Positions 11,767-37,284 of a stretch of 37,284 nucleotides of DNA are shown here, piece after piece. The stretch is from a virus. The position numbers were made by a program, and so were the translations under genes. Below the pieces are notes generated by a model. It was not told the origin of the DNA. It saw only the letters and a list, made by a program, of their open reading frames with translations, and made no database searches. Position 1 is the first letter of the stretch. Each line of letters begins with the position of its first letter. Where the stretch lies: IMG/VR virus record IMGVR_UViG_3300033145_000323, positions 1 to 37,284 of that record; one strand, 5' to 3'.

Positions 11767-11795
11767 ATTATAACACGTTTTGTCATACAAAACCA
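11767..11795 (-). promoter_or_regulatory. Leftward early promoter
   Basis: On the minus strand a perfect -10 TATAAT (11772-11767) lies 17 bp downstream of a weak -35 TGGTTT (11795-11790). It is placed about 45 bp before the first leftward ATG (11723). The 17-bp dyad at 11777-11793 occupies the spacer between the two hexamers, so a bound protein would block polymerase. This would drive the whole leftward early run. Confidence 0.6.
11777..11793. promoter_or_regulatory. Dyad operator in divergent control region
   Basis: gttttgtcatacaaaac is a perfect inverted repeat with 7-bp arms and a 3-bp centre. The left part, ttttgtcatac, recurs 34 bp further right at 11812-11822 without a matching right arm, suggesting a second weaker site. 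Position inside the leftward promoter fits a repressor operator. Confidence 0.6.
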
Positions 11796-11878
11796 GCATG
11801 AAATACCTGATTTTTGTCATACTTTTAACCTTCGCGATATCAGGCATTTATGGCACCATGTATCCTTTATATAGTCCC

Positions 11879-13901: not shown

Positions 13902-14129
13902 ATGGGAGATAAAACTAAAGGCTTGTATCAAAAATACGTAGTTACGAAAATCTCAGATTCTAAGAAAAAAATGGATTGTATTGTTTTGGAGTTCAATGAC
14001 CCAATAGCAAGAGATGCTATTCGTTATTGGGCGGGTCTAATGATTGTTGAAGGTTACGGGAAATGTGGGCAACAGGTTATAGAAAAACTTGGAATGACAA
14101 TGGAGAAGATGATTAATAAAACCTCTTGA
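13902..14129 (+). CDS. Small phage protein, GLYxKY type (75 aa)
   Basis: The beginning (KTKGLYQKYVVTKI) and the DCIVLEFNDPIARDAIRYWAG segment follow a small phage family that starts 'LYxKYxVxR' and has 'FVLxxxxDxxAxxAL'. No biochemical role is known to me. It is the last gene before the promoter-terminator unit, and its stop overlaps the -35 box at 14126. Confidence 0.6.
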   Translation: MGDKTKGLYQKYVVTKISDSKKKMDCIVLEFNDPIARDAIRYWAGLMIVEGYGKCGQQVIEKLGMTMEKMINKTS

Positions 14130-14169
14130 CTCTCCACCGTGACTGATTTATAAGGTGTTCATGATCACC
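14126..14169 (+). promoter_or_regulatory. Promoter with operator-like dyad before the replication genes
   Basis: TTGACT (14126-14131) and TATAAG (14149-14154) are separated by 17 bp and each matches the sigma-70 consensus at five of six bases. A near-perfect 16-bp dyad, ggtgttcatgatcacc (14154-14169, one mismatched pair), covers the expected start point near 14161. This is a textbook layout for a repressible promoter inside the rightward operon. Confidence 0.6.
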
Positions 14170-14264
14170 GAATCCAAAAAAAATATCAGCTAGTTTTTCC
14201 ACGAGAACTAGTTTTTATAACGCCGCCCTCGTTTTCTTGGTGGTCAGCGGGGGCGGTTTTTTTT
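14161..14264 (+). ncRNA. Predicted short terminated transcript / attenuator leader
   Basis: From the start expected at about 14161 to the terminator T-run ending at 14264 there are about 104 bases and no convincing frame. The RNA would carry a first hairpin (ctagtt 14190-14195 with aactag 14206-14211, followed by TTTTT) and then a strong terminator hairpin. It may be a small RNA, or a leader whose termination must be overcome for expression of the initiator gene at 14279. Confidence 0.4.
14223..14264 (+). terminator. Strong rho-independent terminator
   Basis: ccgccctcg (14223-14231) pairs along all nine positions (one G-U) with cgggggcgg (14248-14256) across a 16-base loop, followed by eight T. 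It lies 15 bp before the initiator ATG, so it separates the methyltransferase segment from the replication segment unless antitermination or a downstream promoter acts. Confidence 0.88.
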
Positions 14265-14278
14265 AAAAAGGTGTGTTT

Positions 14279-15031
14279 ATGGCCAGCGGGAAAAAGAACT
14301 ATTTTAGGCATTCATTTTTTGCGGCGACAGACGATAAAATCCGTGAACTCATGCGTCATTTAGGCAAGGAGGGGTACTTTTTCTTCTTTAGATTGCTTGA
14401 AATGTGTGGTCAATTAAGCGCTGAGTCGGCGCAAACTTCCTTTGTACTTCACTGGATAGTCCTCCGAACTATGTGGGAGACTACGCCGAAGAAGGCCAAA
14501 CGTATAGTAGATGTTCTCCAAAGGGTTGGCTTATGTTCAGCAAAGGTTACGGATTACAAGGTTACGTTTGAACTACCTAACTTTATGAAATATATGGGAT
14601 ATTACCAAACTGAAATTAAAACAAAACCCCCTAATATAAAGAAAGGTAATATAAAGAAAGATAATAAAAAGAAAGGTAATATAAATAAAGAGAGCTACCA
14701 CCGAGAAAAAATGCTATTAGATTATTGGAACGGGGCACAAATAGTAGTCCATGAGATAACAGACGACACTTTGCGTAAAATAAAAACCAAATTAAAAAAC
14801 CGTTCCCAATATTCTGACGATGAAATAAAACAAGCCGTGCAAAACTACAAGACAGCACGTAGTGGATCTTTTACACACAAGTGGGCATTTTGGGATTTTC
14901 TTCAAAGAGAGAACGCCGACAAGTTCTACCCAGGCCAATTTATACCAAGCAATTTTACCCGGAAAAGTAACGCTGGATTTACAAGTAATTTTGAATCACA
15001 AATGGAACGCGTAGACAGGGGCGAGCTATGA
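14279..15031 (+). CDS. Replication initiator, lambda O-like role
   Basis: 250 residues from the ATG at 14279 (AAGG upstream); a GTG two codons earlier is an alternative. The N-terminus YFRHSFFAATDDKIRELMRHLGKEG then FRLLEMCG resembles the Lin1244/Lin1753-type (DUF4373) winged-helix replication proteins. A Lys/Asn linker of four five-residue repeats (NIKKG, NIKKD, NKKKG, NINKE) joins it to a C-terminal domain (REKMLLDYWNG, then KWAFWDFLQRENADKFYPGQF) like the conserved C-terminal domain of phage replication proteins. It probably binds the repeats in its own gene and recruits the loader encoded next. ATGA overlap links it to that loader. Confidence 0.75.
   Translation: MASGKKNYFRHSFFAATDDKIRELMRHLGKEGYFFFFRLLEMCGQLSAESAQTSFVLHWIVLRTMWETTPKKAKRIVDVLQRVGLCSAKVTDYKVTFELPNFMKYMGYYQTEIKTKPPNIKKGNIKKDNKKKGNINKESYHREKMLLDYWNGAQIVVHEITDDTLRKIKTKLKNRSQYSDDEIKQAVQNYKTARSGSFTHKWAFWDFLQRENADKFYPGQFIPSNFTRKSNAGFTSNFESQMERVDRGEL
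14633..14692 (+). repeat. Four 15-bp iteron-like tandem repeats, candidate origin
   Basis: Four contiguous 15-bp units start at 14633, 14648, 14663 and 14678, with consensus aatataaagaaaggt. Units 1 and 2 differ at one base, and units 3 and 4 at a few. They sit in the linker of the initiator gene and are extremely AT-rich, as in lambdoid origins where iterons lie inside gene O. Origin function is inferred from layout. Confidence 0.65.
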
Positions 15032-36802: not shown

Positions 36803-37284
36803 CTATTTAAATAAAGCATCTATTTGCTTTAGTATTTGTACCCTTACTGTGCGAGTTAACCCTTTTATTTCCGTCTTTGTTAAGTGGAAGAATTTTCTCC
36901 CCTGGTCTGCTTGGCCTTGTAAAATATCTTTATTCAATGCGCCATCTGTTCTGTTTTCTTTTAAAACTATAAAGGCCTCTGCCACTCTGGTTGCAATTCC
37001 GGTGATGGCATCTAGAAATTTCCCGGTAAATGTCAGATTGCTTTTACCGACAGTTGTACTGCCAGAAAGTTTCCCTTTCTTCTTTGCGCGCTGTCTAACC
37101 TTTTTATACTCATCTTTAAATCTTTTTAACTTCTCTTTTTTTGCCCCAGATTGTTTTACCCCTGACCCTAACCTGGTACGTACCCTAATTCGCTCTGCTG
37201 CTTGATTTGCTAGCCTCTGCATACTGCGCTTTGATGTAACATTGCTGATAATCCGGTTGATCTTCTTGTCAATGTCATTAAACG
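36803..37284 (-). CDS. Junction-spanning gp10-like head-tail connector (3' part)
   Basis: The main part of a 162-residue protein whose start codon lies at 121-119 across the contig junction. Within the window alone the first available ATG is at 37222, but that truncates 23 residues. The basic N-terminal half (RIRVRTRLGSGVKQSG, KKKGKLSG) precedes SNLTFTGKFLDAITG and RKFFHLTKTEIKGL, which align with VNLTLSGDMLDEMTH and RDFMGISKKDLNAI of the upstream gene. These landmarks fit HK97 gp10-like or virion-morphogenesis proteins that join head and tail. Confidence 0.72.
   Translation of the reverse strand, partial: FNDIDKKINRIISNVTSKRSMQRLANQAAERIRVRTRLGSGVKQSGAKKEKLKRFKDEYKKVRQRAKKKGKLSGSTTVGKSNLTFTGKFLDAITGIATRVAEAFIVLKENRTDGALNKDILQGQADQGRKFFHLTKTEIKGLTRTVRVQILKQIDALFK
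37171..37284. repeat. Terminal direct repeat, copy 2
   Basis: Identical to bases 1-114. Removing one copy gives a circle of about 37,170 bp in which the gp10-like gene is intact. Confidence 0.97.

Follow-up and report, generated by a model that had tools for sequence, protein, structure and literature searches.

A recurrent phage leader whose predicted 5' end is complementary to the loop of its own terminator hairpin

How can a phage transcribe its replication initiator gene when a strong terminator stands between the promoter and the start codon? The question is raised by a virus record from IMG/VR that is 37,284 bases long; the whole of it was analysed and is called the window here. It carries a 114-bp direct terminal repeat at both ends (1-114 and 37171-37284) and is for this reason probably the complete genome of a tailed phage. 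Between a small upstream gene, which ends at 14129, and the ATG of an initiator-like gene lies a gap of 149 nt which holds the leader unit described below (Table 1). Early gene control is known in detail for few phages, where it depends mostly on proteins such as N and Q and rarely on RNA, as in the case of put.

The leader unit before the initiator gene

A first-pass annotation had described a near-consensus promoter, a 16-bp dyad on its start point and two hairpins, the second a strong terminator, in 139 bp without a gene. Promoter and hairpins are present, and no reading frame of at least 60 amino acids lies inside the stretch. Taken alone the promoter is not beyond chance, as 10 of 12 positions match the consensus and the window has 34 sites with at least 10/12 matches and a spacing of 16-18 nt. 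It is convincing because the same position is conserved in the relatives. The dyad was recovered as the imperfect GGTGTTCATGATCACC (14154-14169, symmetric at 14 of 16 positions) and by itself does not exceed chance either, with 7/8 arm matches and 11 dyads of equal quality in the window. Its reading as a repressor operator had to be given up: it occurs a single time in the window (the match on the minus strand is its own symmetric partner), none of the other seven elements has a dyad at the start point, and its right half coincides with strand X of the pseudoknot. At 11778-11822 of the window, where promoters diverge, TTTTGTCATAC is found in two exact copies, one within the palindrome GTTTTGT-CAT-ACAAAAC, and these copies are likely repressor operators.

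The leader folds with a minimum free energy of -34.3 kcal/mol (z -4.2), and none of 200 shuffles reached equal stability, which places the terminator beyond chance. A G+C-rich hairpin followed by a U-tract thus lies between the promoter and the first gene, as in an intrinsic terminator or attenuator. Only 14 nt, which hold the ribosome-binding site, separate the U8 tract from the ATG, so transcription of the initiator must pass the terminator. The sequence supports the promoter-led RNA of about 104 bases that had been foreseen, with a predicted end at an intrinsic terminator just ahead of the initiator and a promoter-to-RNA register conserved in the seven other elements, and a read-through leader or a small RNA are still the right alternatives for it. 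The weak alternative fold suggested for ACGAG (14201-14205) and CTCGT (14228-14232) fared less well: both sequences exist, but the fold is absent in the other elements.

What had been missed is that the nucleotides with which the transcript is predicted to begin, X, can form 9-10 bp with the apical loop of the terminator hairpin P3, X', to yield a pseudoknot. This X:X' pairing is the defining feature of the element. The architecture of the unit, consisting of promoter, X, and P3 with the loop strand X', can be read from the DNA with confidence. Within the linker, AUC (14172-14174) is complementary to GAU (14163-14165) in X, and the two may form a competing 5' hairpin.

Table 1. Features of the leader unit and its surroundings in the window, and pseudoknot strands of all elements
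Feature	Position	Strand	Sequence	Basis or setting
-35 hexamer	14126..14131	+	TTGACT	sequence; distance to X conserved in eight elements
-10 hexamer, 17-nt spacer, without canonical final T	14149..14154	+	TATAAG	sequence; register conserved in relatives
Predicted transcription start	14161	+		promoter spacing, 7 nt past -10 hexamer
X, 5' strand of pseudoknot, right half of dyad	14162..14171	+	UGAUCACCGA	complementarity to P3 loop
Linker	14172..14182	+	AUCCAAAAAAA	sequence
P2, middle hairpin, 11-bp core 14188-14213, loop CCAC	14183..14218	+		folding
P3, terminator hairpin, 12 bp (14222-14233 with 14246-14257)	14222..14257	+		folding; alone -23.1 kcal/mol
X', 3' strand of pseudoknot in P3 loop, abuts P3 3' arm	14237..14246	+	UUGGUGGUCA	complementarity to X
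U8 tract, predicted end of short RNA	14257..14264	+		sequence
Ribosome-binding site of initiator	14267..14273	+	AAAGGTG	sequence
Replication initiator-like gene	14279..15031	+		Pfam Lin1244_N 31.0 bits (cut-off 25); weak PHROG match, replication initiation protein
Iteron-like 15-bp tandem repeat, 3.9 copies, inside initiator gene	14632..14690	+		candidate origin
X/X' window			UGAUCACCGA/UUGGUGGUCA	before initiator
X/X' G002			GGACUUUCC/GGAAAGUCU	before initiator
X/X' L035			GGACUUCCAA/UUGGAAGUUC	before initiator
X/X' L058, rightward copy			GAACUUUGCA/UGCAAGGUUC	before initiator; locus from protein-profile scan
X/X' L063			GUAUUUCGC/GCGAAAUAC	initiator locus from protein-profile scan
X/X' G009			GUCUAGCAAA/UUUGCUAGGC	descriptor scan; small unrelated gene 76 nt away
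X/X' L058, second copy		opposite	GCUGACUGGA/UCCAGUUGGC	descriptor scan; heads leftward Gp157-ERF operon
X/X' G029			UCGGCAAGGA/UCCUUGCCGA	descriptor scan; before membrane-protein gene

The gene upstream of the unit (13902-14129) codes for 75 amino acids, and its N-terminus MGDKTKGLYxKY also occurs in phrog_9572 and in phage proteins that are larger and unrelated (L002, L003); it looks like a mobile N-terminal tag domain.

Recurrence of the element in other phages

Eight elements were found in seven phage records: the window, G002/L024, G019/L035, G009/L031, G011/L058 with two copies, G012/L063, and G029/L116. Relatives selected by terminase (47-51% identity) included the G002 record, which has a distant initiator. 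Upstream of the initiators of G002 and L035 the run AAATCCAAAAA or AATCCAAAAA appears again, accompanied by a strong hairpin ahead of the ribosome-binding site; AAUCCAAAAA (14171-14180) is letter-for-letter common to these two and the window, and in all three the bases preceding the run are the complement of the apical loop of the hairpin. A descriptor scan over all fetched DNA added the elements of G009 and G029 and the second copy of L058. The shared order is a promoter with a 17-nt spacer, X directly after it, a linker which is usually A-rich and contains a small hairpin, a U-tailed hairpin with a loop complementary to X, and a ribosome-binding site. The promoter scores 7-10 of 12 matches (only 7/12 in four members) and in all eight elements directly precedes X, the distance varying by no more than 2 nt; X is for this reason the predicted 5' end of the RNA. 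P3 is followed by 5-8 U in 9 nt in every element (U8 in the window, U7 in G029), with interrupted tracts in G002, L035 and both L058 copies, where the sequence suggests that termination may be weak. In seven of eight cases the distance from the end of P3 to the start codon downstream is about 13-26 nt.

L058 has a unit at the head of each of its two divergent early operons, the leftward Gp157/ERF operon and the rightward one with the initiator, and its leader is therefore a true 5' UTR. The two promoters (2840-2885 of this record) have in common a palindrome TTTACAWWTGTAAA that covers the -35 boxes, which is expected if a single repressor controls a pair of divergent early promoters.

The element is found at only 5 of about two dozen initiator genes examined, and the initiator proteins of the phages that bear it share 20-35% identity. 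The initiator occurs in only 3 of 291 Bdellovibrionota genomes, there without the element, and the regions fetched around distant initiator homologues in isolate phages (tblastn with the G002 initiator) contained no such unit. A single-protein scan found no close relatives of the initiator, no DNA similarity of the region was detected in annotated phages, direct scans of IMG/VR yielded no sequence relatives of it, and six matches to the exact terminator sequence in IMG/VR were unrelated and due to chance. Two of the records have further contents of note, namely a GH5 cellulase-like glycoside hydrolase encoded by the phage at L031:8752-9816 (Pfam PF00150, 6.9e-33), and a Twister-P5 ribozyme match of 37.3 bits (gathering 37.6) at L116:17692-17743 on the minus strand, in a record that carries several tRNAs.

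Compared with shuffled upstream sequence, X:X' complementarity in six elements yielded p-values of 0.028, 0.0043, 0.0014, 0.0006, 0.0012, and 0.0047, the weakest being that of the window. Individual p-values would have to be penalised for the search in the case of G009, G029, and the second copy of L058, because these were found by scanning, and the shuffle control of the scan is the fair test. With the strict descriptor, which includes the promoter position, 2.17 Mb of dinucleotide shuffles gave no match, as compared to most of the elements in 1.44 Mb of real sequence. With a relaxed descriptor a single match turned up in 2.24 Mb of shuffled sequence, as did a few weak ones in real sequence; the weaker matches (PK above -15) were judged to be chance. 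X:X' comprises 8-10 bp in each element, and the own pairs range from -14.7 to -22.1 kcal/mol, whereas foreign pairings in a matrix across the elements were never better than -10.8, with -5.2 and -5.6 between the two L058 copies. As each X pairs best with its own X', the changes seen at 9 of 10 pair positions are compensatory and argue for pairing in cis. The helices contain eight G-U pairs, each of which would turn into an A-C mismatch on the opposite strand; this points to the transcript and not the DNA as the functional molecule.

X' abuts the 3' arm of P3 with 0 nt in between in six of eight elements, 1 nt in G029 and about 3 nt in the rightward L058 copy, and about 2-8 nt are left free on the 5' side of the loop. 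With this spacing P3 and the X:X' helix can coexist and stack coaxially. A pseudoknotted terminator is consequently favoured over a classical antiterminator, as the pseudoknot is compatible with the terminator and not an alternative to it. In seven of eight elements the linker is complementary to the three bases at the 5' end of X (P about 1e-4, post hoc), which may give a competing state, and no classical antiterminator stem was found.

Proposed attenuation and its alternatives

These data point to a leader that acts in cis as a conditional transcription attenuator, a pseudoknotted terminator, for early and replication genes; this reading is given a probability of roughly 0.55. The unit would be a self-contained transcription head of promoter, structured leader of about 95-105 nt, and terminator, followed by the ribosome-binding site of the initiator. 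Polymerase starting from the window promoter would make the leader, the first ten or so nucleotides of the RNA would pair with the apical loop of P3 to give one coaxial pseudoknot, and the knotted hairpin would form at the RNA exit. Most transcripts would then be released in vivo as a short RNA with protected ends. If X were kept off X', for example because it folds onto the linker or is bound by a factor, or if the polymerase were modified, read-through into the initiator gene and its iteron-bearing origin would follow. Such a signal is inferred, and the sign of the effect of the pseudoknot on termination is a guess.

The main rival is an antitermination RNA like put, where the folded 5' leader would stay on the polymerase to let it pass downstream terminators of the early operon, P3 being a part of the fold and not a stop signal. 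Put RNA of phage HK022 is about 70 nt long with two stem-loops and suppresses termination; putL is located just downstream of PL (PMC9378689). Like putL and putR, the L058 element is a cis-acting leader RNA of early transcripts that lies at their start or close to it, beginning at the predicted +1 of both divergent operons, and several of the P3 tails are poor U-tracts. No pseudoknot is mentioned for the two stem-loops of put (PMC9378689), whereas the present leader, which also has two hairpins, can pair its 5' end with the loop of the second; this terminator-like hairpin immediately precedes the first gene and its ribosome-binding site. U-rich tails behind P3 in all eight elements also argue against a put-like function, as does the window, where the first early operon begins elsewhere than at the unit, and this explanation is considered unlikely. 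The descriptor did not find the promoter-linked element in the fetched early regions of HK022 and lambda. Still less probable is a stable phage small RNA with its 5' end protected by the pseudoknot and its 3' end by the terminator, the initiator being served by read-through from upstream so that its adjacency is incidental. The predicted product of about 104 nt does have both ends paired, most members have genes of the same strand upstream, and the bacterial small RNA RydC, which also combines a pseudoknot with a 3' tail rich in U, needs its pseudoknot for stability (PMC4337610). The 5' seed of RydC is exposed, however, while here the 5' end is a pseudoknot strand; X and X' vary completely among phages and between the L058 copies, which leaves no shared target sequence, P3 ends just ahead of the ribosome-binding site in seven of eight elements, and L058 has nothing upstream that could supply an mRNA.

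Quite improbable is translational control, in which a protein, possibly the initiator, would bind the pseudoknot near the ribosome-binding site and regulate initiation, much as gp32 of T4 acts on the mRNA that encodes it. In seven of eight elements P3 is the immediate 5' neighbour of the ribosome-binding site, and the similar AAGGTGT is repeated at 14153 and 14269, but pairing of the loop with the ribosome-binding site or start was no better than in shuffles in six of six members tested (p 0.08-0.65), the U-tracts are left unexplained, and the downstream genes differ (initiator, Gp157-like, membrane protein). Such pairing had been considered owing to SD pairing in G002 and L035 and to TGGTCAGCGGG in the terminator (14241-14251), which is similar to TGGCCAGCGGG at the initiator start (14280-14290), a likeness not seen in other members; it was rejected as not above chance. 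That an ordinary terminator of the upstream operon has met with a chance promoter, X:X' complementarity being coincidental, would agree with the abundance of equal-score promoter-like sites and with the window's own p-value, but it leaves the initiator without a promoter, given the short distance from U-tract to ATG, and has to account for a full architecture recurring in seven further elements with compensatory changes and in no shuffled sequence under the strict definition; it is very improbable. Two further candidates were discarded. A leader-peptide attenuator could be imagined for the window (ATG 14161, MITESKKNIS, RBS-like AAGGTG), and by eye no such reading frame is present there in the other leaders. 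For antisense control of the plasmid type no promoter-like site was found on the minus strand near the leader.

Known systems and biological meaning

The attenuator reading has partial counterparts in well-studied leaders. Lambda tR1/nut is a conditional terminator between an early promoter and the replication genes, like the one proposed here, but the window unit brings its own promoter. The iterons of lambda likewise lie within its initiator gene O, and the initiator gene of G002 contains a comparable repetitive stretch, which codes for a KNRIDKNRIDK-like sequence. In the leader of plasmid replication initiators of the repZ/ColIb-P9 type a loop pseudoknot with a YUNR-like U-turn at the start of the loop exerts translational control together with a leader peptide and an antisense RNA; the element shares the involvement of a loop in an initiator leader and the YUNR-like loop start, and differs in having neither a conserved leader reading frame nor a nearby antisense promoter. 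In the attenuator of Bacillus subtilis pyrG, too, the 5' end engages in pairing. There CTP-sensitive reiterative transcription makes events at the 5' end of the transcript decide on attenuation before the gene (PMC4448216). Unlike pyrG, which needs pseudo-templated addition of G, X is templated, variable in sequence, and targets the apical loop, leaving the stem undisturbed.

A search with Rfam 15 gave no match overlapping the elements of the window, L035, L058, L063, L116, and L031, and the copy of G002 in L023 was covered only by a sub-threshold P36 match (21.4 bits, gathering 36). No phage leader with a 5' end pairing into its own terminator loop was found in the open-access literature, which does not prove its absence. 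Since the design recurs in six further phage genomes that are very different from one another, it suggests a so far undescribed RNA switch deciding on early-gene read-out.

Chances are about even that a new class of phage riboregulators is represented here, in which the first ten nucleotides of the nascent RNA knot into the loop of an early-operon terminator and transcription from the unit's own promoter sets the read-through, used by unrelated phages for replication, recombination, and other early operons with a drifting but always matched sequence. Conservation of structure free of sequence is missed by homology searches and Rfam, and the element recurs before replication and recombination operons of highly divergent phages. 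The finding thus offers a testable hypothesis on how the 5' end of a transcript can govern termination, together with a search descriptor by which more such leaders may be sought.
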